Assembly: GCA_947494715.1 (NCBI GenBank)
Contig: CANLWG010000027.1
Coordinates: 1 to 33,284, forward strand
Length of the DNA: 33,284 bases
From: an uncultured Flavobacteriaceae bacterium
GTDB lineage: Bacteria; Bacteroidota; Bacteroidia; Flavobacteriales; Flavobacteriaceae
Direction: 5' to 3'
The position numbers and the translations under genes are program-made. Numbering within the stretch: position 1 is the first letter of the stretch; the number at the start of each line of letters is the position of its first letter. A model generated the notes under the pieces. That model worked only from the letters and a program-made list of their open reading frames with translations, was not told the DNA's origin and searched no databases. Shown here one piece after another: positions 2,762-25,281 of this stretch.

Positions 2762-3727
2762 CTATTCTCTTGAAACATGAAAAATACCATCGCCTTGATT
2801 GACGATAGGGGATTGATTGATACATATAACATAGCCAGGGAACAAGGCTTTTATATTTCTTTCAAAATAGCCAAAAGGATCGGAGATACTGCCAAGAACA
2901 TCCCCCTTATTTACCTTACTTCCTAACCGGACCTTTGGATGTAACATGCCCGAGTATTTGGCTCGGACCCAACTTGATCGCTGTACGATTTTAGGTTTCA
3001 TGATCTTGCTCTCCAGCGCCTCTAGCTCTTCACTAAAATCCCGCATGCCTAGATGCTGCATTACACGGAGTGCTCCGGCAACTCCAGCCCTTGATACTTT
3101 GTTATCTATATCTAAAGATTTTCCGCCTTCGAAAAGTAATACTTTTTTATTGAGCTTATGCATGGTCTGTCGAAGGGATTTATCCCTGTGCTCCCTTTGA
3201 ATTACAAATCGTGTGCCGAACACTTTGGCTAACTTTAGGCTCTCCTTATCCCCTTCATTTATTCTTATTTGGGGGATATTAAATCGGCCATCCCCGCCTG
3301 TATGGTAATCAATACAATAGTCTATCAAAGGGGCAATCTCCTTTACAATATGATAAGCAAATCTGCTTGCGAGTGAACCCCGCGGACTTCCCGGAAATAC
3401 CCTATTTAAATCCCTGCCATCCGGAAATTGTCTTTTTTGATTTAAAAAGCCAAATACATTCACCACGGGTATGCAAATAACCATCCCGCATTCTGGTTTA
3501 TTATATTTGTTGGATATCAACTGGCGTACGATTTCGATACCGTTTATTTCATTGCCATGAATGCCTGCAGTGATTAACAAAGTAGGGCCATCTTTTTTGG
3601 CTCTTTCCACAATGATCGGCACCTGAATTTTGGTTCTGGTATGTAATTTGGCGATGTCCAAATTGAGTTGTACCCCTTTTCCATTGGAAATGGCATGCCC
3701 AAGTACCTCAATTTTTTCACTCTGCAT
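2762..3727 (-). CDS. Succinylglutamate desuccinylase / aspartoacylase-family zinc hydrolase linked to RimK
   Basis: A 321-residue M14-like zinc carboxypeptidase-fold enzyme of the AstE/AspA group, hydrolysing an N-acyl or isopeptide-like amide. Zinc ligands are visible as H57-x2-E60 in GIHGNE and H142 in DYHTGG. The [10 protein letters not shown] substrate loop lies at 104-113 and the catalytic glutamate is E200 in LLFEGG. The C-terminal part (about 245-321) is a lipoyl/barrel-sandwich-like domain, with motifs such as [20 protein letters not shown]. The start is ATG 3727; a TTG at 3736 lies further upstream. It overlaps the rimK stop by 11 bases, so it is translationally coupled to rimK. Enzymes of this family are repeatedly encoded beside rimK, and a role in trimming or removing RimK-added glutamates is a reasonable inference. 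Its substrate is unproven. Confidence 0.88.
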
Positions 3728-4592
3728 TTCTTTCAACGTATTTAATTATTTGTCCAGCGATATCTTTTCCAGTAGCGGCCTCGATGCCTTCCAAGCCTGG
3801 TGAAGAATTTACTTCTAAGATTAGAGGACCTCTTGCCGATTGCAATAGATCTACTCCGGCAACCCCAAGACCCATGGCTTTGGCTGCTTTGATGGCAGCA
3901 TTCTCCTCTTCATCACTAAGTTCGATAACGTCCGCGGTTCCCCCCCGATGGAGATTTGAGCGAAACTCTCCCTCCTTGCCCTGCCGCTTCATGGAGCCTA
4001 CTACGACGCCATCTACTACAAACGCCCTCAGATCTGCACCTTTGGCTTCCTTTATAAATTCCTGTACGATTACACGTGCCTGTAATCCGTTAAAAGCTTC
4101 GAGGATTGATTCTGCCGAATTTCGATTATCTGCTAGCACAACACCTAGGCCTTGGGTTCCTTCCAATAATTTAATGACTACGGGAGCTCCTCCTGCCTTT
4201 TCAATAATCGCACTTACATTTTTAGAGTAGTTGCTAAAAACGGTCTTTGGCAATCCAAGTCCTGCCCTGGACAAAATTTGAAGGCTTCTTAATTTATCCC
4301 GAGAACGAACTAAGGCCTGGGACTCGACGGCCGAAAAAACCTTCATCATCTCAAACTGTCTTACAACGGCCGTGCCATAAAAGGTAATGGAAGAACCAAT
4401 ACGGGGAATAACGCCGTCAACCCCTTCTATTTCTTGACCTTTATAAATAAGTCCAGGTTTTTTTCTTTCAATTATCAGGTCGCATTTCGAATGATCTATA
4501 ACCAACATTTGGTGACCTTTCTTGGTGCCGGCCTCCATAAGGCGTCTGGTGGAATACAAATTTGGATTTTGGGAAAGAATGACAATTTTCAT
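3717..4592 (-). CDS. rimK: RimK, ribosomal protein S6:glutamate ligase (ATP-grasp)
   Basis: The 291-residue cytosolic ATP-grasp ligase adds glutamates to the C-terminus of ribosomal protein S6, and in some species makes poly-alpha-glutamate. It closely follows E. coli RimK along its length: MKI.ILS start, [21 protein letters not shown] (62-82), RDKLRS (98-103), the ATP loop [11 protein letters not shown] (144-154), RSNLHRGG (211-218) and the Mg site [13 protein letters not shown] (259-271). It ends at the usual core length without the C-terminal tail of the E. coli enzyme. It is the first gene of a two-gene unit with the aspartoacylase-like gene. A perfect 12-bp CTACTTAAGTAG palindrome lies 128 bases before its ATG. 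Confidence 0.93.
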
Positions 4593-4719
4593 ATGTAAAA
4601 GTTTTAACCCGGAGTTGGGACGCTACGTTGAGTTGAAATGCGGTCTATTCGCTAACGAAGCGATATAATACGAACAGAGATTAATATCTTATATTAAGAT
4701 TTATGGTTGTAAACAGCAA

Positions 4720-4731
4720 CTACTTAAGTAG
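4720..4731. promoter_or_regulatory. Candidate Crp/Fnr-type operator (CTACTTAAGTAG) before rimK
   Basis: CTACTTAAGTAG is a perfect 12-bp palindrome in the 168-bp gap between rimK and the CNNM-like gene. Only rimK (start at 4592, minus strand) has its promoter here. It matches the 14-bp consensus at 13 positions. Confidence 0.6.
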
Positions 4732-4760
4732 CTTACAAAGCCATTTTCTTATAATAGCTT

Positions 4761-5794
4761 TTAAAAGACTTCAAAAACCAGTTGCCATTCTTTCAGGATG
4801 TCCGGTATGGCTAGTTCTGAAGCAAGCTGTTGCATATCATCAGTTTCATCTAACTCATCAACAATTTCCAACCTGATAATTTCTTCGATAACGTCCTCCA
4901 AAGTGGCTATCCCTGTAAAAGTGCCAAAAGAGTCATATACAGTTGCTATGTGAATTTTTGCTTTAATAAAGTGATTCATCAGATTATCCAATAACATGGC
5001 ATCATTCACCGCGATTGGTTTTTTATTAGTCAAAATATCACCCACAGTATTCGTTTCTGTGAAAACTCCTATAAGGTCTTTTGCATTCAGTGTCCCTATG
5101 ATATTGTCCTCTTTTGAATCGTAAATTGGTATTCTAGTGAAGCCCTTATCCCTTATTTCCAGTAATTTAGATTTATCTAGAATGGTATTCTTATCTAACG
5201 TGTAAAGCACGGTTTTTGGGGTCATAATTTTTTTTACGGTAGTCTCCGAAAACGAGAGGGCTCCTAATAATATGCGTTCTTCATCCTTATCAAGATCTGC
5301 GTCTTTGCCTTTTCCATGGTCTTTGATGATTTCTTTAATTTCCTTTTTACTCCATAAGGTTTGCAATTCTTCTCCTAGAAGTTTATCCAATGCAAGGGAC
5401 AAAGGATATGCAATGGGATACATTAAAAAAATAAAAATTTTGACCAGCCATACCGTTTTGGAACCTAGGGTAAGTGCATGGCGAGAAAAAAATCCTGTGG
5501 TAAAATTTCCCAAAAAATCACAATTAGTACGGTAGATATAATACCGGCTATCAAACCACTTGTGATTTCCCCAAGGAATATAGCAGCGGCCGAGTTTACT
5601 GCTACATTCCCAACCAATAAGGTACATAGCAGAAGATTACCCCGTTTACGAATTGGATAGACTTTTTTAGCGCGAACATCACCAAGCTTGATTTTACGTT
5701 TTAGGCCGGTTAGATTCAAGCTGAAAAAGCCAAGTGTTAAACCGCTAAAGCAGCCTGATAGGATTACTAAGCTGAGGACAATTAAATATTCCAT
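4761..5794 (-). CDS. CNNM/HlyC-CorC-like DUF21-CBS membrane transporter, split by a -1 frameshift
   Basis: The two halves join into a protein of 344 residues. The first half (from ATG 5794) is a DUF21/CNNM transmembrane domain, with a signal-like first helix, GCFSGLTLGFFSLN, LLVGNVAVNSAAAIFLGE and IFWEILPQ. The second half starts in another frame with SRHALTLGSKT. It holds the last membrane helix (about 112-137), the MTPK linker and two CBS domains, which end in GIATLEDVIEEII..EIVDELD. The CorC_HlyC C-terminal domain is absent. The join is at a run of seven T on the coding strand (5486-5492), in frame as T TTT TTT. A one-base slip back at that site restores the family sequence exactly; otherwise it is a one-base deletion or sequencing error. 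Family members export Mg or other divalent cations. The unshifted product would stop six codons later. Confidence 0.8.
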
Positions 5795-6002
5795 TCAGAG
5801 CGCTACTATTTTTTATTTAGATGAAGGTTTTGCCGAAAAATGTCTTAGTAATAATTTTATATGCCTTTTTTAGACAGCAGGTTTTCAGCGTTTTTCGCTT
5901 TATACATATAATCCGTTTATTCAAGAAATCTATCCCTTGTTAAGGATTGCCTATAAGAAGCGATTCAGCGACAGTAAACTAATTTTTGAAGATGTTAAAA
6001 AA

Positions 6003-6425
6003 TTACTTGTCAAGCAAATACTGGTAATCTTCAAATGAAAGACCTCCACCAAAAATCTGAACTGATTTTTGAATTACCATGTTAGCCTTTACTGGGGTAC
6101 AACCAAGCCCTACAGCATACTTTCGAATTAAGCTTTCCTCCACAGCATCAATGTAATGATCCGCATAGATAATTTTAAAAAGGTCGTAGATATGTTGAAG
6201 TTGTTCTTCCCTTGTATTTGGAAGATTTACCGGGTGCTTTTCAGGGTTTTTGAGAATGTATTCATATTCCTCATCTGAAATATCAAGTTTACTTGCAAAC
6301 CGCAGAATGCTGGCTTCCTCTTTTTCATTGATTTCCCCATCACTTAAGGCAATGCAGACGATGGCAGAAAAGTGTGCTACATTTTTTCTGTGTTCCGATG
6401 ATTCGAGCAAATCTCTAAAAGACAT
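6003..6425 (-). CDS. TerB-like tellurite-resistance / stress protein
   Basis: A 140-residue soluble all-helical protein of the TerB/DjlA-N superfamily. It shows the paired acidic helical repeats of the family: ALSDGEINEKEEASILRFA at about 27-45, and IYADHYIDAVEESLIRKYA at about 89-107. The second repeat carries the acidic loop presumed to bind metal. There is no signal peptide or membrane segment. It is divergent from the zinc-ribbon metallopeptidase gene. The intergenic region holds a GTAC-type palindrome centred 58 bases from its ATG, with TACTTTTA 33 bases closer. The molecular role of stand-alone TerB proteins is not settled; links are to metal and envelope stress. Confidence 0.8.
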   Translation of the reverse strand: MSFRDLLESSEHRKNVAHFSAIVCIALSDGEINEKEEASILRFASKLDISDEEYEYILKNPEKHPVNLPNTREEQLQHIYDLFKIIYADHYIDAVEESLIRKYAVGLGCTPVKANMVIQKSVQIFGGGLSFEDYQYLLDK

Positions 6426-6445
6426 TTTATGTTTTAAACGGTATA

Positions 6446-6487
6446 TAAAAGTAGACCGAAAGTATCGTCAAGTCCATTACTTAAGTA
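6446..6487 (-). promoter_or_regulatory. Candidate promoter of the TerB-like gene: palindrome plus TACTTTTA box
   Basis: ATTACTTAAGTAGC (core palindrome TACTTAAGTA at 6478-6487) lies in the divergent region between the TerB-like gene and the metallopeptidase gene. Reading towards TerB, the octamer TACTTTTA (complement of 6446-6453), a variant of the Bacteroidota -7 box TAnnTTTG, is centred 33 bases downstream of the palindrome centre. The same octamer is at the same distance from the palindrome near 15.0 kb. This is the spacing expected for an activator bound around -40. The site may also serve the rightward gene. Confidence 0.5.
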
Positions 6488-6610
6488 GCACAGATCATAA
6501 TATTTTTAAAACTTGTAAATCCCTAGAGAATATGCACCATCTTTGCTTAAGAGAAACAAACGATAGTATTTTCGTTATTAATTCAGTCGATGATTCTAAG
6601 GTAAAAATGT

Positions 6611-7666
6611 ATGAAAGTTTTTGAATGCGGTCATTGTAAGCATGCCTTATTTTTCGAGAATGATATATGTGAAAATTGTGGTCATGTCTGTGGTTATCGA
6701 GACGATGACCGTAAAATGTTGACTTTTGACACCCAAAGTACAGCGCTGATTTCTGATCGCGAAAAAATTGAATATAAATACTGTAAAAACAAAAATTATG
6801 GCGTTTGTAACTGGCTGCTGAAAAAGGACTATGATCATGATTATTGTAGAGCTTGTCAGCTCAATCGTACCATACCCAATCTTTCCGATAAGAAGAATTT
6901 TCCAAAATGGCAAAATTTGGAAGTAGCCAAGCATAGGCTCATCTATCAACTTCAAAAAATAGGATTGGATATTCCAAGCAAATTGGTCAATAAGGAGGGG
7001 TTGTGTTTTGATTTTATTGTTAAAATGGACAACTCTAAAATCATGACCGGTCATGCCAATGGGGTCATCACCATACTATTGCGAGAAGCAGACCCCGTTT
7101 TTAGAGAGCAGATAAGAGAAGAGTTGCACGAGCCTTACCGTACACTAATCGGGCACCTTAGGCATGAAGTAGGCCACTATTTCTGGGACCGATTGGTTTT
7201 CAATAACCAGAATATCCTATCGGAATTTAGAACCATCTTTGGGAATGAAGAGGCAAACTACGCTGATGCATTGCAAGACTACTATGAGCACGGTGCGCCA
7301 GCCAACTGGCAAGACGAGTTCATTAGCGCCTACGCCACATCGCACCCATGGGAAGATTGGGCCGAGACCTGGGCCCATTATCTGCACATTATGGATATGG
7401 TAGAAACCGCCCATTTTTTTCGTTTAAGGGTAAACCCGGCAGATATTTCGAAAAATATGAAGACAAAAGTAACACTTGACCCATATAGGATAAAAGACTT
7501 TCAAACAATAATCGATACCTGCGTACCCTTGTCTTTTGCGGTTAACAGTATAAATCGGGCCATGGGTATTCCCGACGTTTACCCGTTCGTTATCAATCGA
7601 AAAGTGGTAGAGAAAATGACCTTCATTCACGAATTGCTTTTACCGAAACGCTGTATCGAAAATTGA
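6611..7666 (+). CDS. Zinc-ribbon putative zinc metallopeptidase of the CP-ATP-grasp neighbourhood
   Basis: A 351-residue cytosolic protein. An N-terminal zinc-ribbon holds CxxC pairs at C6/C9 and C20/C23, with further cysteines at 58, 66, 79 and 82. A metallopeptidase domain follows with HEVGH at 185-189 and D193 in an HExxHxxxD arrangement, then HPWEDWAETWAHYLHI at 245-260. This matches the putative zinc-binding metallopeptidase family (zinc-ribbon_6 plus Peptidase_Mx). The family is commonly encoded with circularly permuted ATP-grasp, alpha-E and transglutaminase genes, as here. The next gene starts 275 bases on with its own candidate operator, so they may be separate transcripts. The peptide substrate is unknown; an amidoligase product is the natural guess. 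Confidence 0.85.
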   Translation: MKVFECGHCKHALFFENDICENCGHVCGYRDDDRKMLTFDTQSTALISDREKIEYKYCKNKNYGVCNWLLKKDYDHDYCRACQLNRTIPNLSDKKNFPKWQNLEVAKHRLIYQLQKIGLDIPSKLVNKEGLCFDFIVKMDNSKIMTGHANGVITILLREADPVFREQIREELHEPYRTLIGHLRHEVGHYFWDRLVFNNQNILSEFRTIFGNEEANYADALQDYYEHGAPANWQDEFISAYATSHPWEDWAETWAHYLHIMDMVETAHFFRLRVNPADISKNMKTKVTLDPYRIKDFQTIIDTCVPLSFAVNSINRAMGIPDVYPFVINRKVVEKMTFIHELLLPKRCIEN

Positions 7667-7761
7667 AATTTTATCCGATACTGCCATTCCAGAGATTCAT
7701 AAATTCAGAAATTGGATTTCAACGTGAAAGCCAAACTAATACGTTCCGATTTCGCAGATAG

Positions 7762-7773
7762 CTACCTAGGTAG
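7762..7773. promoter_or_regulatory. Candidate operator CTACCTAGGTAG before the CP-ATP-grasp operon
   Basis: A perfect 12-bp palindrome, CTACCTAGGTAG (GCTACCTAGGTAGT in context, 7761-7774), lies 169 bases before the ATP-grasp ATG. The centre changes from TTAA to CTAG while symmetry is kept, as expected of a binding site under dyad constraint. No good -7 box is seen at the expected spacing. Confidence 0.55.
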
Positions 7774-7941
7774 TAGATAAAGTCAACTAAACGGGCGATA
7801 TTACAGGAAATCGTAAAATACTTAGGCTGGAATTCAAGATTTCACCATTTTTATTCTGAAGAGGGCCGCACGATACATAATAAATTAATTAGAAGTATAT
7901 TTAAAAGGATTGACAATCCAATAATTTAGAAAACCACGACT

Positions 7942-9381
7942 ATGTCCAAAATAGATTTTTCCAATTATGAAACCAAGGGTTTTTATGATGAAATGTTCGC
8001 TGCCGACAATGAGGTTCGACCAAGCTATGCGTTGTTTAGAAAGCGATTGGAAAAATTAAGTAGAAACAAGCTTGAATTCCTGCAGCATGCGACCGATAGG
8101 GCGCAACTGTCGCTAGGTATGACTTTCAATGTTTATAGTGATAATCAAGGTGTAGAGCGTATTCTTCACTTAGACATTATTCCTAGAATAGTTAGTGGAG
8201 AAGATTGGGAAGTTCTTGCCAAGGGCCTTGAACAAAGAATAATCGCACTGAATATGTTCATCGATGATATTTATAACGACCAAAAGGCATTAAAGGATAA
8301 AATAATACCCAAGGAATTGGTTTTCTCGAGTGCTGGCTATCTTAAAGAATGTGTTGGACTGAAACCGCCCCAAAACGTGTGGAGCCATATTTCTGGAACC
8401 GATTTAATACGGGACGGAAAAGGAAATTTCAATGTGCTCGAAGACAATCTTAGATGCCCATCAGGGGTGTCATATATGTTAGAGAATCGAGAAATTCTCA
8501 AACGTACTTTTCCAGAATTGTTCGAAAAATTACATGTAAGGCCCGTTCATGATTATTCACATTATTTGAGGGATATGTTGGAATCGCTGACGCAAGAATC
8601 CCCAGCCTCAATAGCGGTTCTAACTCCAGGAATTTACAATTCGGCCTATTTTGAACATGCCTATCTGGCTCAGCAAATGGGAGCTGAGTTAGTAGAGGGC
8701 AAGGATTTGGTCGTTAAGAACAATTTCGTATACATGATTACCACGAAAGGCTTGCAAAAAGTGGACGTTATTTATAGAAGGGTAGATGACGAATTCTTAG
8801 ACCCCTTGACTTTCAACAAAGATTCTTTGCTTGGTACCCCAGGTTTGTTCGGAGCCTATTTAAAAGGAAACGTAGTTCTTGTAAATGCCCCAGGAGCTGG
8901 TGTCGCCGACGACAAGGCCGTTTATGCCTATATTCCACGATTGATAAAGTATTACCTGGGAGAGGAAGCCCTGGTAAAAAATATCAAAACCTACATTTGC
9001 GCAGAAGAACAGGACCTGAAGTATGTTGTTGAAAATATAGCTAAGCTGGTCGTGAAACAGACCGATGGTTCGGGTGGTTATGGGATGTTGATTGGTCCAA
9101 GAGCGACCAAAAAAGAAATTGAGGAGTTTTCCTTAAAAGTCAAAAACAATCCAAGGAATTATATCGCCCAGCCCATGATCAATCTTTCCAGGGTGCCCAC
9201 GATGACCGATGATACAATTGAGGGTAGGCATGTAGATCTCAGGCCCTATGTCTTGTACGGGAAAAACGTAAAGATAATTCCAGGTGCCCTCACGCGCGTC
9301 GCGTTAACGAAAGGTTCTTTAGTAGTCAATTCATCGCAAGGTGGTGGCAGTAAGGACACTTGGGTACTAGATAACAAATAA
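7942..9381 (+). CDS. Circularly permuted ATP-grasp type 2 protein (amidoligase)
   Basis: A 479-residue cytosolic protein of the CP_ATPgrasp_2 (former DUF404/DUF407) family. Hallmarks are LEDNLRCPSGVSYMLENRE at 166-184 (the acidic/Asn metal-ATP motif moved forward by permutation), YRRVDDEFLDP at about 278-288, and VKQTDGSGGYGM at 371-382, the glycine-rich ATP loop. HVDLRPYV lies near 430. The length is normal. It should form an amide or peptide bond at the cost of ATP, but the substrate of this class is unknown. It is the first gene of a tight operon with alpha-E (11 bases on) and transglutaminase genes. Comparative genomics has long linked these families to synthesis of an unknown peptide or protein modification. 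Confidence 0.9.
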   Translation: MSKIDFSNYETKGFYDEMFAADNEVRPSYALFRKRLEKLSRNKLEFLQHATDRAQLSLGMTFNVYSDNQGVERILHLDIIPRIVSGEDWEVLAKGLEQRIIALNMFIDDIYNDQKALKDKIIPKELVFSSAGYLKECVGLKPPQNVWSHISGTDLIRDGKGNFNVLEDNLRCPSGVSYMLENREILKRTFPELFEKLHVRPVHDYSHYLRDMLESLTQESPASIAVLTPGIYNSAYFEHAYLAQQMGAELVEGKDLVVKNNFVYMITTKGLQKVDVIYRRVDDEFLDPLTFNKDSLLGTPGLFGAYLKGNVVLVNAPGAGVADDKAVYAYIPRLIKYYLGEEALVKNIKTYICAEEQDLKYVVENIAKLVVKQTDGSGGYGMLIGPRATKKEIEEFSLKVKNNPRNYIAQPMINLSRVPTMTDDTIEGRHVDLRPYVLYGKNVKIIPGALTRVALTKGSLVVNSSQGGGSKDTWVLDNK

Positions 9382-9392
9382 AATAGGAGTTT

Positions 9393-10355
9393 ATGTTAAG
9401 TAGAGTAGCGAATACCATGTATTGGATGAACAGGTACATCGAAAGGGCCGAAAACTATGCCCGTTTTATGGACGTGAACTTCAACCTCGCCCTAGAATCT
9501 CCATCTGATAGCACGGAACAATGGAAGCCTTTGGTCGTCATTACCGGGGATTGGCCATTGTACGAGTCGCTCTATGAAAAGGTAGATAAAAAACAAGTTA
9601 TCTTTTTTTTGGGGTTTGACCCTGAAAATCCGAATTCTATATACAACTGTATTACCAAAGCGAGAGAAAATGCACGGGCGATACGTCCCGAAATCACTAA
9701 AGAGGTATGGGAACAAATTAATTCGATTTATTTCTTTGTTAAGGAAGGTTTGGAGAAAAAACGATGGAAAACAGGCGACCCAAGATATTTTTTCAAGAAA
9801 ATCAGAGAAGACTGTCAACTGCTCTATGGTATTTTAGATTCTACCATCTCAAGAAATGAGGGTTGGCATTTTGGGAAAATAGGACAGTTGCTCGAACGTG
9901 CCGATAAAACCTCGAGGGTCATAGACGTGAAATACTACATTTTATTAACCTCAACAGAAGCTGTGGGCACGCCTTTAGATTTGATGCAGTGGGCCGCACT
10001 GTTAAAATCAGTAAGTGCCTTCGATATGTACCGAAAAAAATATGGCAAGCTTACGGCCCTGAATATCTCCGAGTTCTTGATTTTGGACAAAACCTTTCCG
10101 CGGTCTATGCTGTGCTGCCTTATTCATGCAGAACAATCGCTATATGCGATTACTGGAAATTCAGGCGGTTTTACCAATAGTGCCGAAAAACAGTTGGGCA
10201 AGCTAAAAGCGGAATTGGAGTTCGCCGATATCGAAGATATTTTCAACAGCGGACTTCATGAATATATTGATGGTTTTCAGCAACGGTTGAATGCGATTTC
10301 GATGCACTTTTATGACTCCTTTTTTACCACACAGATTAATCAGATGCAACAATAA
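9393..10355 (+). CDS. Alpha-E domain protein (former DUF403)
   Basis: A 320-residue, mostly helical soluble protein. It begins with the very typical MLSRVANTMYWMNRYIERAENYARFMDVN and later shows IGQLLERADKTSRVIDVKYY at about 166-185, the two glutamate-containing helices that name the family. Alpha-E proteins always keep company with CP-ATP-grasp genes and are presumed partners or accessory enzymes. An AGGAG is found 4 bases before the ATG, an unusually good ribosome site for this organism, supporting the start. It sits 11 bases after the ATP-grasp stop and 32 before the transglutaminase gene, so co-transcription is very likely. Confidence 0.9.
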   Translation: MLSRVANTMYWMNRYIERAENYARFMDVNFNLALESPSDSTEQWKPLVVITGDWPLYESLYEKVDKKQVIFFLGFDPENPNSIYNCITKARENARAIRPEITKEVWEQINSIYFFVKEGLEKKRWKTGDPRYFFKKIREDCQLLYGILDSTISRNEGWHFGKIGQLLERADKTSRVIDVKYYILLTSTEAVGTPLDLMQWAALLKSVSAFDMYRKKYGKLTALNISEFLILDKTFPRSMLCCLIHAEQSLYAITGNSGGFTNSAEKQLGKLKAELEFADIEDIFNSGLHEYIDGFQQRLNAISMHFYDSFFTTQINQMQQ

Positions 10356-10387
10356 GTTGCACATAGCCAAATATCCAATTTAGACAG

Positions 10388-11233
10388 ATGCACCTAAGGA
10401 TTGTTCACGAAACGGAATATGCTTTTACCGAACCAGTTTTTCTGGAACCACATTATCTCAGGTTCAAGCCAAAAAGCATGCCTTTTTTTGGTATGGAATC
10501 CTACGAATTGAATCTCTCCGTACTGCCATCGGGAATTTCGGAACAGGAAGATGCAGAAGGAAACACCATACATTTTTGTTGGTTCGATGGTATGCATAAT
10601 AACATCCATATTAAATCGGAAGCTTTACTAAAAATCACCCCTTTTAAACCATTCAATTTTTTAGTGCACCCTGCGAATTGCAATCTAATTCCGTTCAGGT
10701 ATCCTCAACAGTTGTTTCCACTATTGCAAAATAATTTAACAGTCGCGAAAATCAGTGATTCGTTACTTGATTATGGACAGGAAATTCTTAAAAATGTCGG
10801 ATCAAGTACCATTTCTTTTTTGTTAAAGTTGACCATACGAATACATGAAGATTTCAACTTGGAAATTAGAGAATTTGGCGTTCCATTACACCCCAATATA
10901 ACCTTTGAAGGTAAAACAGGTTCTTGCCGTGATTTAAGTTGGATGCACATACAACTCTTACGTAATCTTGGCTTAGCAGCTAGATTTGTAAGTGGTTACT
11001 ATTATGTTGATGCAGAAGACCCACAATATGAACTGCACGCTTGGGTGGAGGTTTTTATTCCCGGGGCCGGCTGGATCGGTTTTGACCCCAGCAATGGTAT
11101 CGCTACCGCCAATATGCACATACCAGTTGGTTCTAGTTGTCATTATGAGAACACAATGCCGGTTTCAGGCTCGGTTCGAGGGGATGCACGGGCATTATTG
11201 AAGACCGATTTAAAGATAGAGATGATAAATTGA
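10388..11233 (+). CDS. Transglutaminase-like cysteine peptidase of the CP-ATP-grasp operon
   Basis: A 281-residue protein. An N-terminal beta-rich transglutaminase_N/BTLCP domain covers about 1-90 (MHLRIVHETEYAFTEPVFLEPHYLRF). The core transglutaminase domain has catalytic C180 (GSCRDLSWMH), H217 (ELHAWVEVF) and D233 (GWIGFDPSNG). No signal peptide is seen, so it acts in the cytosol. Such papain-like proteins usually hydrolyse or transfer peptide amides, and in this operon they are thought to process the product of the ATP-grasp enzyme. It is the last gene of the operon; the following gene is 240 bases on with its own candidate operator. Confidence 0.9.
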   Translation: MHLRIVHETEYAFTEPVFLEPHYLRFKPKSMPFFGMESYELNLSVLPSGISEQEDAEGNTIHFCWFDGMHNNIHIKSEALLKITPFKPFNFLVHPANCNLIPFRYPQQLFPLLQNNLTVAKISDSLLDYGQEILKNVGSSTISFLLKLTIRIHEDFNLEIREFGVPLHPNITFEGKTGSCRDLSWMHIQLLRNLGLAARFVSGYYYVDAEDPQYELHAWVEVFIPGAGWIGFDPSNGIATANMHIPVGSSCHYENTMPVSGSVRGDARALLKTDLKIEMIN

Positions 11234-11351
11234 CTTTTTATGCGCCTCTTTGATTATTACTTCTTGCTTTTTTCCAAATCTAGATGTTCGTTCTGGTATA
11301 AAAACCCTTTTTAAGGGTGAACAGATGCAACTTCTGATTTTTGTCAATACT

Positions 11352-11365
11352 GCTACTTAAGTAGC
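11352..11365. promoter_or_regulatory. Candidate operator GCTACTTAAGTAGC, best copy
   Basis: GCTACTTAAGTAGC is a perfect 14-bp palindrome and defines the consensus, with 5-bp arms and a TTAA spacer. It lies 110 bases before the small exported protein gene. TATTTATG at 11390-11397, one base off the TAnnTTTG -7 box, is centred 35 bases downstream. Confidence 0.65.
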
Positions 11366-11474
11366 GGTTTGAGCTTGCATAAGCTATTTTATTTATGGGC
11401 AAGTACAATAACTTGAACAAACACAATACAGTTGGAAGAAACATCGCCAATATTGACTTAATATACGAAAAAAC

Positions 11475-11783
11475 ATGAAAACACTATTTGTATTTTTAGT
11501 TGCTTTTGCTTCAATGGCAACAACAGTAGTCGCACAAGAAACCGAAACTGTAAAAGCCACTTTTAATGAATATTCTGAAGGCACTTATTATTTTACCGAT
11601 TCGAATGATTTTTCCATTGAATTCGAGCATATATCAAAAGAGGTATTGTCTCAGTTCAACCTAGCAGGGGAAGAGTTTAAAGGAAAACTTTTTCAAATTA
11701 CCTATGAGGTAGATGCTGAAGAAGACGAAGATGGAGATACAATCGCGGTCAATACTATTGTCGGATTAAAACTGGTGGAATAA
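11475..11783 (+). CDS. Small exported acidic hypothetical protein
   Basis: A 102-residue protein with a clear signal peptide (MKTLFVFLVAFASMATTVVAQ, cut after about residue 21) and an 81-residue mature part. The mature part is rich in Glu and Asp, with a run YEVDAEEDEDGDTIAV at about 78-93 that could bind divalent cations. The remaining pattern suggests a small beta domain. No lipobox is present. I do not recognise the family. It follows the best copy of the local palindrome and stands alone between the transglutaminase and the next small gene, so it may be a strongly induced envelope protein of the same regulon. Confidence 0.7.
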   Translation: MKTLFVFLVAFASMATTVVAQETETVKATFNEYSEGTYYFTDSNDFSIEFEHISKEVLSQFNLAGEEFKGKLFQITYEVDAEEDEDGDTIAVNTIVGLKLVE

Positions 11784-11950
11784 TTTTTCCAAAGATTATT
11801 TGATAGAAGAAATTGAATAGTTGTGTACTCAAAATATAGAGGAATGCTCTATCACTATAGTTTTTACTCAGAAGAGCTATCAAAGTGGCCGTTGTGAAGT
11901 TTGAAATGATCTACTTTAAAAATCGGTCGATATTTTTTTGCAATCAGTTA

Positions 11951-11956
11951 GCTACC
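11951..11956. promoter_or_regulatory. Possible operator half-site GCTACC
   Basis: Only the left arm GCTACC is present, 66 bases before the ATG of the 89-residue protein gene. A six-base match is expected by chance at this rate, so this is noted only because of its position. Confidence 0.12.
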
Positions 11957-12021
11957 CATATAATCCTATATCGTTTTAGTTCTGTTGGAAAGTTGATACT
12001 TATTAAACGTTTTACCATTCC

Positions 12022-12291
12022 ATGAAAAAAATAGCCGTTAATTTTGAAGATATTACCACTGAAGTAATAAATGAACTAGCAAAACAGTATCCATGTGGAT
12101 TTGTGGAAAGTGATATTATAAGTTTCAGTAGTTTTAACGATGAATTGGAAGATCGGGTAAAACTAATATTTAATGAAACGGTTTACCTCATTAAGAAATC
12201 CACTATTGAAGATTGGGCAACATATAGATATGAAGAGGGCTATTTCAAGTCCATGGGCAATGAAGGGGAACAGAAAGATGCTGACTTATAA
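12022..12291 (+). CDS. Small hypothetical protein, 89 residues
   Basis: A soluble 89-residue protein with the mixed alpha/beta pattern MKKIAVNFEDITTEVINELAKQYPCGF and an acidic, lysine-containing tail. It has no signal peptide, membrane segment or known motif. Codon use and composition fit the neighbours, and nothing on the other strand competes with it. It lies 109 bases before the Kef-type antiporter gene, in the same direction, and could be co-transcribed with it. I do not recognise the family. Confidence 0.6.
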   Translation: MKKIAVNFEDITTEVINELAKQYPCGFVESDIISFSSFNDELEDRVKLIFNETVYLIKKSTIEDWATYRYEEGYFKSMGNEGEQKDADL

Positions 12292-12400
12292 TTAATTATT
12301 CCAATAGCATAATTTCATTTTTCATAATAACTTCCTGCCTCCCCTTTTTTATATACGGTTCTTATTATTTAGGCATATCTTCGGAACAATATCAAAATTA

Positions 12401-13621
12401 ATGATTCCATTAAGTACAGCTTTCGACCCAACAATCGGGCTTATCTCAATTATGGCCATAGTCATAATGGCCGTAGGTCTGCTTCTAAAAAAATTAAAAC
12501 AACCATACATAATTGGATATATCCTAATTGGTGCCGTCCTTGGCAAATACGGGTTAGGTTATATTGAAGATTCTGAAATGATTCACAGTCTGGGAGAAAT
12601 CGGAATCATTCTTCTATTGTTCTTCGTTGGCATGGAGATCAGTTTACCTGAACTGATAAAGCAATGGAAAGTCGCTGCCATAGGGACTTTTTTACAAGTC
12701 TCCGCAAGTGTATTATCCCTAATAGGTATCGGCTTTTTTTTTGATTGGAAAATCGAACGTTCTATCATCATCGGATTTGTTATCGCCTTGAGCAGTTCCG
12801 CGGTAATCATAAAATTACTTTCGGATAAAAATCTGATAAACTCGCGTATCGGCAAGAATGTTTTAAGCATTCTACTGATGCAAGATATCATTATCGTTCC
12901 GTTGTTAATCATCACCTCTGCCATTTCTGGTAAAGAACAATCGTTGGAAAACATGTATATTATGTTGGTTGGGGGCTTACTTATCGTTGGCACACTAATT
13001 TATATTTATCAGAAAAAGACAATTCATCTTCCGTTTTCGAAAGCCATTGAAAAAGACCACGAACTTCAAGTTTTTCTGGCGATTTTATTCTGTTTTGGTG
13101 GAGCGCTGTTGTCCTCGTTATTCGGATTGTCAGCGGCACTAGGGGCATTTGTGGGTGGAATGGTCATGCATACTTCAAAGGCGACTCATTGGATTTTTAA
13201 TACTTTAGATTCGTTCAGGGTGCTGTTTGTAGCCATCTTTTTTATTAGCATTGGATTGCAATTGGATTTTGGTTTCATCTACGAACACGCCTTTGCACTT
13301 TTATCAGTTATTCTTGCGGTTTACATCACGAATCATTTTATCAACGCAATCGTTCTTCGCCTATTCTCTTGCCCTTGGAAAGAAGCATTTCTAGGAGGCG
13401 CCCTGCTCGCTCAGATTGGTGAATTGAGTTTTTTGATTAGCGCATCTGCCTACAGTTTAAATATAATAGAGAGCTATGGTTATAAATTTACGATTAGTTT
13501 GATCTCGCTTACCCTTATAATCAGTCCTTTCTGGATAACACTTACCGAGAAACTAATAGCATATCAAAGAATTCAAAAAGTAAAGCAAGCCAAAAATACA
13601 CCGACGGGGCTTGGCAAGTAG
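12401..13621 (+). CDS. Kef-type / CPA2 monovalent cation:proton antiporter
   Basis: A 406-residue inner-membrane protein with about 12 hydrophobic segments, covering the complete Na_H_Exchanger domain (residues about 12-390). Typical stretches are QPYIIGYILIGAVLGKYGLG (29-48), LLLFFVGMEISLPEL (70-84), ALSSSAVIIKLLSDK (128-142) and GLSAALGAFVGGMVM (243-257). The C-terminal RCK/TrkA_N regulatory domain of KefB/KefC is missing. The protein ends in a short basic tail after the last helix, as in many Bacteroidota members. It should exchange K or Na for protons in pH or electrophile stress. No operator copy is seen immediately upstream. Confidence 0.88.
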   Translation: MIPLSTAFDPTIGLISIMAIVIMAVGLLLKKLKQPYIIGYILIGAVLGKYGLGYIEDSEMIHSLGEIGIILLLFFVGMEISLPELIKQWKVAAIGTFLQVSASVLSLIGIGFFFDWKIERSIIIGFVIALSSSAVIIKLLSDKNLINSRIGKNVLSILLMQDIIIVPLLIITSAISGKEQSLENMYIMLVGGLLIVGTLIYIYQKKTIHLPFSKAIEKDHELQVFLAILFCFGGALLSSLFGLSAALGAFVGGMVMHTSKATHWIFNTLDSFRVLFVAIFFISIGLQLDFGFIYEHAFALLSVILAVYITNHFINAIVLRLFSCPWKEAFLGGALLAQIGELSFLISASAYSLNIIESYGYKFTISLISLTLIISPFWITLTEKLIAYQRIQKVKQAKNTPTGLGK

Positions 13622-13666
13622 ATGCTTGCCAAGTGGTTGTTCAACCTAATGTAAGGGTAGGAAAAG

Positions 13667-14353
13667 CTAAACTTTGTCTGCATGAGTGGTGCCTCCGAAG
13701 GAGTCAACATACTTAAAATTATGGAACCAGTACGCTGAAGAGATGACCGAAAAAATAACTTCCTTATCACTCTTCTTCTCAGAAGTAAGCTGCCAAATAA
13801 TATCTTTTGCGTCCTTAAAGTCTTCGCCTTCTACTTGTTCTTCAAACAACCGGTAGATTAAAGTATTCTTAGGAAGACCTTTAACTAACAAACGAATTAG
13901 AGCGGATTCTGAAAAATCATTAAAAACTGATATACCGTCATTGGTGGTGCCCGTAACTTTTACTTGGAACATGATTGCTTCCGGATGTGGAAACTTCCCG
14001 TTGAAAGCTTCATATAGCAATTGATTTACATTAAAAAATTCTTCATGTAAGGAAAGATCTGCATATTCCTCCCATATTTTTTCATCCAACATTTCGCTGG
14101 ATAAATTTTCGATTTGACCGTTGGAGAGTCTATCCTTGAAGACATATTCTAGAACAATTTTAGCCGCATCTTCTGGGTCATTGTCCGTTAACGACATTAA
14201 GCACATTTCCTTTAACTCTTCTGGTGTCAGTTCAGAAGTGTCCCCATAATCCATCAAATCAAGTAAGTCTAGATATTTTTGTTGGTTCCATGAATTAGGT
14301 AATTCCTGAATAGAAACGAATTTCAATTTCACTACATTAAAAGATGCCTTCAT
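13667..14353 (-). CDS. Hypothetical acidic protein, 228 residues
   Basis: Soluble and acidic with no signal peptide, starting at ATG 14353 (MKASFNVVKLKF). The frame is open further upstream to a TTG at 14383, which I reject because the extra residues look random. Visible blocks are an N-terminal strand-rich piece, a helical acidic middle (about 33-90, with DDPEDAAKIVLEYVF-like sequence), a beta stretch PEAIMFQVKVTGTTNDG, and a C-terminal helix ending in FHNFKYVDSFGGTTHADKV. I do not recognise the family, though such proteins are conserved hypotheticals in Flavobacteriia. It faces the Kef-type gene with 45 bases between stops. Confidence 0.65.
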   Translation of the reverse strand: MKASFNVVKLKFVSIQELPNSWNQQKYLDLLDLMDYGDTSELTPEELKEMCLMSLTDNDPEDAAKIVLEYVFKDRLSNGQIENLSSEMLDEKIWEEYADLSLHEEFFNVNQLLYEAFNGKFPHPEAIMFQVKVTGTTNDGISVFNDFSESALIRLLVKGLPKNTLIYRLFEEQVEGEDFKDAKDIIWQLTSEKKSDKEVIFSVISSAYWFHNFKYVDSFGGTTHADKV

Positions 14354-14475
14354 ATTAAGACCTGAATTTAAATTTATAATCAAAAAGTTGAAATACTATG
14401 TCATTACACAATAAGTTTACCTATCATTTTTCCTGAAATATCATAAAGAAGTTTCCAATTAAAAATTCCGTTCGT

Positions 14476-14787
14476 TCACTTAATCTCATAAATGGTATTG
14501 TTGATCATTTCTACCTGACTAATATCTTTAATTCCATCTTTCTCAAAACTTTTTTCGAAGTTTTTCAATACAACTTCAGGAATTGCCTCGGTGGTTATTA
14601 AGTTATTCGTTTCCAACCAGTTACCTTGAATATCGAATAAAGCAGAGTAACACTTTTTTATCAAAATAAAGTCGATGTGCCACCTTGATACATCTATTTG
14701 TTGCCATTGAACGGCAGTAGTATTAGGGTATTTTATTTTGAATGCACTAATCACAATGGGGCTCGCAAAGTTGTGCTTGTTCTGCAT
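14476..14787 (-). CDS. PepSY-like / BLIP-like small protein (DUF2874-type)
   Basis: A 103-residue protein matching the pattern of the putative beta-lactamase-inhibitor-like PepSY family: FKIKYPNTTAVQWQQ at the front, a central FILIKKCYSALFDIQGNWLET, then IPEVVLKNFEKSF and a closing NNTIYEIK strand. Family members usually have a signal peptide and two such repeats. This one has a single repeat and no signal sequence, so it may be cytosolic or shortened. The start ATG at 14787 is the only reasonable one. A near-perfect palindrome lies 219 bases upstream, with a TACTTTTA box between. Confidence 0.7.
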   Translation of the reverse strand: MQNKHNFASPIVISAFKIKYPNTTAVQWQQIDVSRWHIDFILIKKCYSALFDIQGNWLETNNLITTEAIPEVVLKNFEKSFEKDGIKDISQVEMINNTIYEIK

Positions 14788-14975
14788 GAACCTTGTTGGT
14801 GCGGATAACGTATCCTTAAGTTTTTGAATCCACTCACGTTCCGTTAGGATTTTGGTCAGTAAATGTTAGGTATCACGTTATAAGTATACAAAGGCTACTT
14901 GCTGATATTAAAAGATGTTACAAAACAATGCAGAAAAAACCCTCCAATACCTAAAGCACCCTTTAAAGCAATACA

Positions 14976-15019
14976 TAAAAGTACTATTCAATAGCTTCTT
15001 AGACAGCTACCTAAGTAGC
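14976..15019 (-). promoter_or_regulatory. Candidate promoter of the PepSY-like gene: palindrome plus TACTTTTA box
   Basis: GCTACCTAAGTAGC (15006-15019) is a 14-bp palindrome with one central mismatch. Reading leftwards, TACTTTTA (complement of 14976-14983) is centred 33 bases downstream of its centre, exactly the arrangement seen before the TerB-like gene. The following gene on this strand starts at 14787, giving a leader of about 185 bases. Confidence 0.5.
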
Positions 15020-15078
15020 ACTTTGAAGGTGAAACATCAAAACAAGAAAGTAAGAAATGAAGTGAGATGGTAAAAGCG

Positions 15079-15786
15079 TTAATTGCTGTATTTTTCCTCC
15101 GCAACGGCAAGAAGTAACTCTAAATTTTTAACATTGATTTGTTTTCGGCTGACCGAAATAGCCCCGCTTCTTTTTAACTCTTGAATATGTCGACTAACAA
15201 CTGCGCGGGTGGTTCCGATTAGACCGGCTATCTCTTCATTTGGTAAATCGTTGATTAATTCAAGTTGGCGTGTTGCTCCATTTACATTTTTAAGCAACAA
15301 ATTTGCAAGGCGCACAAGGGTACTATGAAGGGTGACATCGGTTGAAACATCCATTAATTGACTCATTCGTTCCCCTAAATAATGCATAATCGCTTTGTGT
15401 ACCTCCGGATTCTGATTTATCCAATGCCTCATATGGTCCATAGGAATCTTTAAGACCTCGACAACATCAAGAGCTTCCCAATAGACATCATGAGGTTTTG
15501 TATCCAATAATGACAACACATCAAACACGCTGCCTTTAGTTAGTATAAAAACAGTGTGTTCGCGCCCTGAATCTGGATTTGATTTAAATACTTTAAGCCT
15601 ACCATTTACGATAATATGAAAGGTAGATGAGAGCTCTAATCCGCTTTTGAAGCTTTTTACTTTCCAATGGTCTAATGTCATCGAATGGAGTAAAGATTCT
15701 ATGGCTTCAGTATTTGAATCTTTAAAGAATGGGGAATTCAATAAAACTTCATGGCATCTCAAATAATCAGTGTGATCAGGTGTCAT
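15079..15786 (-). CDS. Crp/Fnr-family transcriptional regulator
   Basis: A 235-residue regulator. The cyclic-nucleotide-binding-like barrel covers about 15-125, the dimer helix about 125-160, and the Crp-type winged helix-turn-helix about 160-225 (LPNEEIAGLIGTTRAVVSRHIQELKRSGAI at 181-210). It lacks the N-terminal and central cysteine cluster of Fnr (only C11), and no cAMP-contact RxS motif is evident in the barrel, so the signal is unknown. The recognition helix has Arg at the positions equal to Crp R180 and R185 but Ala where Crp has E181. A site other than TGTGA-N6-TCACA is therefore expected. It is the obvious candidate to bind the local GCTAC-N4-GTAGC palindrome. Confidence 0.88.
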   Translation of the reverse strand: MTPDHTDYLRCHEVLLNSPFFKDSNTEAIESLLHSMTLDHWKVKSFKSGLELSSTFHIIVNGRLKVFKSNPDSGREHTVFILTKGSVFDVLSLLDTKPHDVYWEALDVVEVLKIPMDHMRHWINQNPEVHKAIMHYLGERMSQLMDVSTDVTLHSTLVRLANLLLKNVNGATRQLELINDLPNEEIAGLIGTTRAVVSRHIQELKRSGAISVSRKQINVKNLELLLAVAEEKYSN

Positions 15787-15875
15787 TTGTTACGCTGTGG
15801 TTGAACCGCAATTTATGGAAATTTAAGTAATTAGAGCGGTGTTTTACATATTGAGTAAAGTACAGGAATACAGAA

Positions 15876-15915
15876 CAAAATAGAAGTATTCGTAATAGTC
15901 TTGTACTTAAGTTTC
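15876..15915 (-). promoter_or_regulatory. Possible autoregulatory site of the Crp/Fnr gene
   Basis: TGTACTTAAGTTTC (15902-15915) matches the consensus palindrome at 10 of 14 positions, including the core TACTTAAGT. Towards the gene, TATTTTG (complement of 15876-15882), one base short of the TAnnTTTG box, is centred about 30 bases away. The distance to the ATG is about 116 bases. Confidence 0.35.
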
Positions 15916-23614: not shown

Positions 23615-25281
23615 GGTGGCTGTTGCACAACTCTGATTTACATCAATTCTTGTTTTCATAAGCCTTAGGAAATCGGTAACTTATGGTATGCAAGGCAGAA
23701 AGAACTACACCGAAAAACTGTTCCTCAGCTTCAGGCTGTCGGACCGTGTTCCCAAGGACAACCTTTACAGAAGGCTCCGGGAAACGCTCGAACTGGGTTT
23801 TCTTTATCGGGACACGAAGGAACTTTATGGCAGGACGGGCAACCCCTCCATTGACCCGGTGGTCTTCTTCAAGCTGTTGATCACCGGATACCTTGAGAAC
23901 ATCACCTCCGACCGGAAACTGGTGGAACACTGCAGTATGCGGATGGACGTGCTCTACTTCCTGGGCTATGATCTGGACGAGGAACTGCCATGGCACTCGA
24001 CGATCAGCAGGACAAGACAACTTTACCCGGAATCCCTTTTTGAGAAGCTGTTCAACAAGATATTTGCCCTTTGTGTCGACAGCGGGATGGTGTCCGGCCA
24101 CACCCAGGCCGTGGACTCGGCCCCGATAAAGGCAAACGCATCCATGGAAAGCGTGGTGCCGAAAATGCCCGCCACCCCCATGGACGACCACTTGAAAAAA
24201 GTGTCGGAAGAAAACGGGGCAACCGAACAAAGGCAAGGGAAGATTGATTCCCCCGCACATATCTCCGCTCCCGAACATGAGCTGAAGCGCATGGAAAAAC
24301 ATCACCAAAACCTGCGGGAGAGTCCGGTACGCCCCTCTGGTGCATCACACAAAAGAGCACGCCTGCTGAGCAACAAGACACACTACAATCCCCATGACCC
24401 GGACGCCCGTATATCGGTAAAGTCGGGCAAGGCCAGAAAACTGAACTACCGTTGCAGCATGGCGGTGGATACCGCGGAAGGGGTCATCTCCCATATCCAG
24501 GCGGACTTTGCCGACGGCAGGGACAGCCAATACCTGAAGGGTATCGGCCTAAAAGTCCAGAACCGTTTATGGAAGAGCGAGCTTATAATGACGGATTTAC
24601 TGGCGGACGCGGGGTATTCCAATGGCGGGAACTACGATTTTCTTGAACAAAGGAAGGTCACCGGATGGATACCCGTCTTCGGGAAATACAAACCCGAATT
24701 GGAAGGTTTCCCATACAACAGGGAAAGGGACGAGTACAGTTGTCCAATGGACAGACCGCTGCCCTTCAAGCGGCTCAGTACCAACAAGGACGGCACCGTG
24801 CTGAAAAACTACTGGGCGGCACCAAGGGACTGCAAGGCCTGCCCCATGAAACCCCAATGTGCGCCAAAAACCAAATGTAAAAAGATAGCCAGAACGATAT
24901 ACGACGAACCATACCTGAGGGCCTACGCCCGACAGCACAGCGAAAGGGGCTGGCAAATGAAAAGACTCAGGCAAAGTACAGTGGAACCCGTGTTCGGCAG
25001 CCTGACCCAGTTCTACGGCCTGAGGAAAATAGGAGTACTGGGCAAGGCCGGGGCGCACAAGGTAATGCTCATGGCAGCGATAGCCTTCAACCTGAAAAAG
25101 TACCTCAAGAAAGGGGAGGGAAAACCCTCCATTGGTATTTTAAGGACCATTATGAGCACCCTACAAGGCTTCCTGACCGCTTTTCACCAGCAAATCCAAC
25201 CAAGCAGGTTGTCCTAATGGCCAAGTGAAAACGGCCTGCTTAAATCCATATCTTGTACACAGACCTCTTCTGCAACGGCCA
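23615..25281 (+). mobile_element. Complete IS1182-family insertion sequence
   Basis: One transposase gene lies between imperfect terminal inverted repeats TGGCTGTTGCACAA (23617-23630) and the complement of TTCTGCAACGGCCA (25268-25281), 12 of 14 identical. Taking GG before the left repeat as part of the element, CGTT flanks both sides (23611-23614 and 25282-25285) as a possible 4-bp target duplication. The interior is plainly GC-richer than the flanks, with codons such as CTG, GGC and GCC that neighbours avoid, so it is recently acquired. The right end sits at the foot of a small hairpin (25283-25299). Confidence 0.85.
23688..25217 (+). CDS. IS1182-family transposase
   Basis: A 509-residue DDE transposase, full length. 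The N-terminal DUF772-type domain includes SIDPVVFFKLLITGYLENI and LEELPWHSTISRTRQ-like sequence. The catalytic triad is D143 (TQAVDSAPIKANAS), D307 (DLLADAGYSNGGNYDFL) and E433 (STVEPVFGSLTQFYGLR). The usual insertion domain lies between, with a cysteine cluster DCKACPMKPQCAPKTKC near 381-397. The frame is intact from the ATG at 23688, so the element may still be active. Its reading frame is clearly unlike host genes in base use. Confidence 0.92.
   Translation: MQGRKNYTEKLFLSFRLSDRVPKDNLYRRLRETLELGFLYRDTKELYGRTGNPSIDPVVFFKLLITGYLENITSDRKLVEHCSMRMDVLYFLGYDLDEELPWHSTISRTRQLYPESLFEKLFNKIFALCVDSGMVSGHTQAVDSAPIKANASMESVVPKMPATPMDDHLKKVSEENGATEQRQGKIDSPAHISAPEHELKRMEKHHQNLRESPVRPSGASHKRARLLSNKTHYNPHDPDARISVKSGKARKLNYRCSMAVDTAEGVISHIQADFADGRDSQYLKGIGLKVQNRLWKSELIMTDLLADAGYSNGGNYDFLEQRKVTGWIPVFGKYKPELEGFPYNRERDEYSCPMDRPLPFKRLSTNKDGTVLKNYWAAPRDCKACPMKPQCAPKTKCKKIARTIYDEPYLRAYARQHSERGWQMKRLRQSTVEPVFGSLTQFYGLRKIGVLGKAGAHKVMLMAAIAFNLKKYLKKGEGKPSIGILRTIMSTLQGFLTAFHQQIQPSRLS

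Follow-up and report, generated by a model that had tools for sequence, protein, structure and literature searches.

A Flavobacteriaceae Crp/Fnr subfamily that probably activates through a TGCTAC-N4-GTAGCA operator

In class II activation by Crp/Fnr proteins, the canonical position of the activator is −41.5. The cAMP-dependent CRP is marked by an Arg-Ser/Thr in its phosphate-binding cassette, and FNR has four conserved cysteines for a [4Fe-4S] cluster. To our knowledge, few transcription factor-operator pairs have been assigned in Flavobacteriaceae. The promoters of Bacteroidota have an unusual −7 box, which in Flavobacterium psychrophilum spans −12 to −5 according to the available text of PMC9723704. 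Here, we analyzed a stretch of 33,284 nucleotides from an uncultured Flavobacteriaceae bacterium (contig CANLWG010000027.1 of assembly GCA_947494715.1, positions 1 to 33,284), called the window throughout, which contains the gene of a Crp/Fnr-family regulator at 15079-15786 and a set of GCTAC-YTAR-GTAGC palindromes around it. An earlier note, made from the letters of this DNA, had proposed that the regulator binds the palindrome and controls a local group of genes including its own. Its pairing of regulator and site stands in what follows; autoregulation, the control of a metallopeptidase gene and two weak copies do not. From the sequence comparisons below, we consider it very likely that the regulator binds a 16-bp dyad and acts as a class II activator of a compact neighboring regulon.

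A pattern scan of the window reveals five copies of the 14-mer GCTACYTARGTAGC with zero to two mismatches, which span 4.7-15.0 kb. Two of them are perfect (11352-11365 and 15006-15019), two have one mismatch (4719-4732 and 7761-7774) and one has two (6476-6489). Judged against the list of open reading frames (ORFs) of the window, all five lie between genes, as had been claimed, and the remark that none lies right of 16 kb is true at up to two mismatches. The regulator and these copies are listed here, with +36 denoting a box that starts 36 bp from the first dyad base.

15079..15786, minus strand: Crp/Fnr-family regulator, proposed class II activator; PF00027 and PF13545, recognition helix IGTTRAVVSRHIQ.
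15005..15020, minus strand: operator with a perfect 14-mer core, proposed driver of the PepSY-like gene; its minus-strand −7 box, at +36, is TACTTTTA.
6476..6489, minus strand: operator that precedes terB, with two mismatches; TACTTTTA is the −7 box at +36 in the terB direction, and the L183:5599 site of a relative lies in the same gap.
4719..4732, minus strand: operator that precedes rimK-astE, with one mismatch; degenerate −7 box TAATATAA in the sense direction and box TAGCTTTT in the antisense direction.
7761..7774, plus strand: operator with one mismatch upstream of the circularly permuted (CP)-ATP-grasp genes; sense −7 box poor (GATATTAC), antisense box TAGTTTGG.
11352..11365, plus strand: operator, perfect 14-mer, upstream of a small exported protein gene; TTTATTTA at +36, one base off the box.

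At up to three mismatches, GCTACNTANGTAGC has 13 matches in the window where 5.2 are expected, a number that none of 100 shuffles reached. In addition, a weight matrix trained on 41 sites from other genomes ranks exactly the five copies at the top of the window (24.9 to 12.9 bits), with the next place at 7.6 bits. Neither of two weaker copies that had been proposed (2475-2488 and 15902-15915) is a match even when three mismatches are allowed; the latter scores 3.1 bits, the former is absent among the 15 places listed by the weight matrix, and we reject both as sites and regard them as chance. A looser 12-mer at up to two mismatches is not enriched in the window (9 versus 7.4 expected); therefore, the signal in the window rests on the strong copies. 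The whole genome (5.97 Mb) contains exact CTACYTARGTAG four times, each time inside the window (three places for the reversed control), and every place of the 14-mer with zero or one mismatch is inside the window as well. The genome-wide count that the earlier note had suggested gives no overall enrichment at up to two mismatches, as the 14-mer has 32 places and its reversed control 91; therefore, the 2-mismatch copies outside the window look like chance. The unusual feature is the clustering of good copies in one 10-kb stretch, not their genome-wide number. A comparison with plasmids gave no match.

We searched 397 Flavobacteriaceae genomes, calling the regulator at an E-value of 1e-25 or better, and found it in 42 genomes and 31 of the 237 genera. 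In a class-wide sample, it was present in 2 of 395 genomes, both Flavobacteriaceae. The exact 14-mer occurs in 17 of the family genomes, namely in 15 of the 42 with the regulator and 2 of the 355 without it (Fisher p 2e-14, a value that overstates independence owing to kinship among the genomes), indicating that the motif tracks the regulator in related genomes. For the reversed control, the corresponding numbers are 1 of 42 and 18 of 355 (19 genomes in total). The two genus mates of the window genome contain neither an ortholog (best E 2e-12) nor an exact 14-mer. The exact composite of dyad and −7 box was found at 47 places; 23 of the 42 genomes with the regulator account for 35 of these, and 10 of the 355 without it for the other 12. 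Among these 12 places, three belong to one genome, G039, and the other nine have centers unlike YTAR, two of which (TTTG and AAAA) recur in a site cluster of genome G191; two of the 35 places in regulator genomes (G015 and G000:C1) look like chance too.

The regulator consists of a cNMP-binding-type N-terminal domain (PF00027, E 4e-10) and a C-terminal Crp-type helix-turn-helix (HTH_Crp_2, PF13545, E 2e-12), both above cut-off, and its sequence matches in the PDB are Crp/Fnr proteins; it thus belongs to the Crp/Fnr superfamily. It does not carry the mark of cAMP-dependent CRP, as His-Asp stands where Mycobacterium tuberculosis Crp has Arg-Thr in the one alignment made. The protein has a single cysteine (C11) and no cysteine is among the columns conserved in at least 85% of 55 regulators, which does not agree with an FNR-type iron-sulphur cluster. 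Its best named families are NtcA (TIGR03697, 58 bits) and FtrB (NF006901, 52 bits), for which the curated NCBIfam cut-offs are 245 and 211 bits. In the alignment of the 55 regulators (locus L103 was left out as the same locus as L027), the typical recognition helix reads IGTTRAV(V/L)(N/S)RHIQ, and R194 and R199 are invariant in 55 of 55. A195 in this helix aligns opposite a Glu of M. tuberculosis Crp, which bears out the earlier observation that Ala replaces the Crp Glu. The residue at 198 pairs with the promoter-proximal flank of the dyad (Ser with 8 T and 1 A; Asn with 29 A, 2 T and 1 G), although the Ser set is one close clade and ancestry may explain this association. Of the four other Crp-type matches in the window genome, two have clearly different helices (GTATESCIR and GTATETAIR), one is considered below and the helix of the fourth was not alignable. 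The AlphaFold model of the regulator is mediocre (pLDDT 70) and was not used.

To the 46 regulator genes of the 397-genome search we added 10 loci from named genomes, and from these 56 loci we removed L103 and L021 (near-identical to L022), leaving 54 regulator genes. A site with up to two mismatches is present from 10 bp before to 300 bp after the stop in 42 of the 54, where the background is 0.010 expected per 310 bp. The sites of these 42 genes lie −2 to +181 from the stop, and the regulators share 34-100% identity with the window protein. In all ten loci from named genomes, whose labels are Eudoraea, Maribacter, Muriicola, Dokdonia and Gillisia, a copy with zero or one mismatch lies 47-79 bp behind the stop. 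The copy at 15006 is likewise 3′ of the regulator, and none of the 54 regulators has the motif (up to two mismatches) within 300 bp upstream. A looser GCTACN4GTAGC pattern within 250 bp upstream gave a 2-mismatch match in 2 of 55 genes (L106 and L094), and we reject autoregulation through an upstream copy.

At 12 loci, we also examined the DNA behind 15 regulator genes for variant dyads that have a box at +36, with about 0.1 expected per gene. Five were found, of which those at L104 (+64), L074 (+266) and L076 (+110) look convincing and those at L104 (+337) and L085 (+93) do not. In two genomes of one genus (G162 and G341), regulators with a TTRTMxGR helix (L076 and L083) have a GTGAC half-site behind one regulator gene each; these sites, GCGACCCAGGTCAC and GCTACCTAGGTCAC, have TAATTTCA at +36.

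The dyad measures 16 bp, in the range of about 14-16 bp of Crp/Fnr operators. On the promoter-distal side, the outer T (not used in selection) and the G are present in 41 of 41, and on the promoter-proximal side C is present in 29 and A in 31 of 41. When the 42 sites were aligned on the dyad, with the promoter box not used for selection, the distance from the first dyad base to the start of TAnnTT was exactly 36 bp in 41 of the 42 and one base longer in the remaining one, L108. Information content is 1.4-1.6 bits at the T, A, T and T of the box and 0.01-0.14 bits for each of the positions +17 to +35, and no −33-like element is conserved in the 42 sites. Among 36 further sites away from regulator stops, the boxes again peak at +36, with 28 boxes from 24 sites (both directions in 4 of them), 6 at +37 and at most 4 at each of the other offsets from 20 to 60. 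With the box at −12 to −5, as in the available text on F. psychrophilum, the spacing of 36 therefore places the dyad center at −41.5, the class II position, for start sites that are predicted by box placement. Among the window's sites, those for the PepSY-like gene (15006) and terB (6476) have the full box at +36; at the small exported gene (11352) the box deviates by one base, and at 4719 (rimK) and 7761 (CP-ATP-grasp) its sense version is degenerate.

The co-occurrence, the adjacency in 42 of 54 genes and the fixed −7 spacing in 41 of 42 sites support the motif as the likely site of the local Crp/Fnr regulator. The site, its spacing, its co-occurrence and its conserved placement are direct results of the computation; from them, we infer physical binding and activation as the direction of control. 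The regulator, assumed to be a dimer as in its family, would bind TGCTAC-YTAR-GTAGCA and, from a dyad centered at −41.5, would activate sigma-A promoters as a class II activator, with a TAnnTT(T/A) −7 box whose start is 36 bp away from the first GCTAC base and no conserved −33-like element. The predicted targets in the window genome are the PepSY-like gene, terB and the small exported protein gene, and probable further targets are the CP-ATP-grasp/alpha-E/transglutaminase genes, rimK-astE and o89-kefB, where o89 denotes an 89-aa ORF.

Several observations weigh against this reading, in addition to the kinship mentioned above, and some of them also speak for one of the alternatives. The reversed control of the composite is itself found in 7 of the 42 regulator genomes and 17 of the 355 others (p 0.008). 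At one mismatch, the composite has 122 matches in 44 genomes versus 82 for the control; therefore, many of these matches are chance. Three CP-ATP-grasp genes of regulator genomes (50% identity) have no convincing site within 1.5 kb, a scan from which a fourth relative (L194, 33%) was left out. Furthermore, 12 of the 54 regulator genes have no site with up to two mismatches at the stop; G039, a 99% complete genome, has three exact composite sites with a best Crp relative of only E 1.5e-12; and another Crp-type protein of the window genome (L039) has a partly similar helix, SRVVVSR, that retains R, S and R with Val replacing Ala195. The earlier note had taken persistence of the motif without the regulator as evidence against its proposal; in this respect, the exact 14-mer is rare in genomes without the regulator (2 of 355), but G039 keeps its three composites.

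The last three observations would fit a dyad that is the operator of a different transcription factor, with the Crp/Fnr gene merely the constant neighbor of one target. We regard this as improbable, since the exact motif tracks the regulator over the 397 genomes, the regulator-site pair stays while the neighboring genes vary between genomes, and the two genus mates without an ortholog are also without an exact motif. A 5-4-5 dyad at −41.5 is, in addition, the class II geometry of Crp/Fnr proteins, and the helix keeps its Arg pair.

Just as improbable, in our view, is a regulator that binds the dyad but represses the promoters or only modulates them. At 4719 and 7761, a full −7 box lies at +36 in the antisense direction, toward the 3′ ends of the neighboring genes, and this also counts against activation, as it leaves the direction of control uncertain at some copies. 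Against this alternative, the site precedes the −7 box by one constant distance in 41 of 42 cases, and neither a spacer nor a −33-like element is conserved; sites of repressors tend to overlap the core promoter, and their positions vary.

The palindrome could also act as an RNA hairpin, such as a terminator behind the regulator gene, given that 42 regulator genes have this inverted repeat close to the stop codon, its position ranging from −2 to +181 relative to the codon's end. We reject this very unlikely reading, as no constant T-run follows the repeat, the dyad is also found in gaps between genes where a −7 box lies to either side of it (L025, L027, L093 and L094), and a hairpin model offers no account of the constant spacing to a promoter box. 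Equally remote is an origin of the clustered copies by chance or as a mobile palindromic repeat, which would agree with the loose 12-mer and 14-mer counts (two mismatches) in the window and the genome but is refuted for the strong copies by the confinement of all 0- and 1-mismatch places of the genome to the window, by copy flanks that are unrelated by eye and by the recurrence of placement and −7 spacing at 42 of the 54 regulator genes.

Returning to class II activation by the regulator, the candidate target genes of the window and one further candidate operator are as follows.

14476..14787, minus strand: PepSY-like protein gene (PF11396, E 2e-8), proposed target of the 15006 site; same place in relatives.
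13667..14383, minus strand: 238-aa ORF from the ORF list, probably in the PepSY operon; a relative in L025 has its own site.
6003..6425, minus strand: TerB-domain protein gene (PF05099), proposed target.
2762..4592, minus strand: rimK (3717-4592) and an AstE/AspA-type hydrolase (2762-3736), probable operon; PF08443, PF18030 and PF24827.
7942..11233, plus strand: circularly permuted ATP-grasp, alpha-E protein and transglutaminase, probable operon; PF14403, PF04168 and PF01841.
11475..11783, plus strand: small 102-aa protein gene from the ORF list with a signal-like start, proposed target; export read from sequence only.
11876..11889, plus strand: degenerate candidate sixth operator GCTATCAAAGTGGC upstream of o89-kefB; −7 box TACTTTAA at +36, 1.4 bits.
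12022..13621, plus strand: 89-aa ORF (12022-12291) and a KefB-like antiporter of the Na+/H+ exchanger family (12401-13621; PF00999).

The commonest target position among the genomes is the gene just behind the regulator, mostly encoding an exported-looking protein of ~170-190 aa or a PepSY-like protein, and this gene is the most constant predicted target. Eight of the 36 members of the target alignment match PepSY_like. The AlphaFold model of the exported target folds well (pLDDT 89), and its best PDB matches are Bacteroides/Parabacteroides periplasmic proteins, including DUF2874 and BLIP-like proteins, with low TM-scores of 0.30-0.36.

On three contigs, Maribacter sp. IDS-26 retains the gene set, and a site with a sense box precedes terB-rimK-astE (L183:5599), CP-ATP-grasp (L183:4228, CCTATCTAAGTAGC), the small exported gene (L182:3142, TATATTTA), o89-kefB (L182:1989, a strong site) and PepSY (L023:1421), with no site of its own for rimK. 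A sense-box site also precedes CP-ATP-grasp in M. arenosus (L100:5506). The recurrence in Maribacter sp. IDS-26 backs terB, CP-ATP-grasp, the small exported gene and PepSY as targets, all of which had been named before. The Maribacter o89-kefB site is the reason why we propose the sixth site at 11876, which the earlier note had missed; its operator score is 1.4 bits and its combined rank is 10 among the rows listed. Control of rimK and CP-ATP-grasp is plausible but has weak sense −7 boxes in the window. We reject the copy at 6476 as an operator of the metallopeptidase gene, as the −7 box is absent in that direction.

Elsewhere, sites precede MscS-MgtE, a SET protein-kefB cluster, UspA, DUF308 and DUF6515/M1 peptidase genes. 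The predicted targets suggest a stress and envelope theme, in which the regulator may have an envelope, osmotic or general stress role. In G039, which has no close ortholog, a site lies before an NDH-2 gene, and the composite sites of this genome (L096 and L098) include ones before this NDH-2-type gene and a DUF6600 gene. At L113 (G191:C10:1300000-1319500), the region around the regulator contains five exact composites in a span of ~12 kb; these have GCTAC-N4-GTAGC halves with centers such as CAAA and TTTG and precede two DUF308 genes, an exported gene of the PepSY-like type and others. The terB gene of Maribacter sp. IDS-26 (L183 5671-6065) aligns in two pieces in different frames and may be frameshifted in that assembly. 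In the window, a CNNM/CBS (CorC-like) gene at 4761-5794 on the minus strand falls into two ORFs that overlap (4761-5627 and 5465-5794), which suggests a frameshift or sequencing error. Right of the regulon, a 509-aa ORF at 23688-25217 on the plus strand is, from its sequence, presumably an IS1182-type transposase.

A wider picture is possible, which we put forward tentatively. The regulators might form a Flavobacteriaceae-specific subfamily without cAMP or an iron-sulphur cluster that runs a self-contained regulon beside the regulator gene, whose usual output, an exported PepSY-like protein, may feed back on an envelope signal. Lineages might then add stress genes (TerB, RimK, CP-ATP-grasp, KefB, MscS/MgtE, DUF308 and UspA) by gaining a dyad at exactly −41.5, and changes of the helix might go with changes of the operator. 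A literature search with several operator spellings, covering titles and abstract openings of open-licence papers, found no paper on this operator. The analysis gives Flavobacteriaceae one predicted regulator-operator pair, with a 16-bp operator, an activation geometry and a target list. It also links poorly characterized genes (CP-ATP-grasp/alpha-E/transglutaminase, TerB and PepSY-like exported proteins) to one predicted switch.

Among known systems, the Pseudomonas rim and rlo operons (RimK, ATP-grasp and transglutaminase) contain enzyme types similar to those of the window genes, and the rlo proteases have been linked to low-osmolarity survival in the available text of PMC12239564. The gene sets differ, however, and that part of the text has no Crp/Fnr regulator. 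The regulator is not a member of NtcA or FtrB, as its scores are far below their cut-offs, and the NtcA site, GTA-N8-TAC, is unlike this dyad. The sigma-A promoters of Bacteroidota share the −7 box, TAnnTTTG there and TAnnTT(T/A) here, but here the operator fills the region of the −33-like element, of which no conserved form is seen. The closest likeness is to class II activation by E. coli CRP and FNR, with which the regulator shares its Crp/Fnr domains, the center at −41.5 and, in the case of FNR, the 5-4-5 dyad layout. The regulator differs from FNR in having no conserved Cys, and from CRP in the Ala that replaces Glu and the His-Asp that replaces Arg-Thr in the aligned Crp. Its half-site is TGCTAC, in contrast to TGTGA or TTGAT, and its operator pairs with a Bacteroidota −7 box, suggesting class II activation with the same spacing as in E. 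coli by a new member of a well-known regulator class with an operator of its own.

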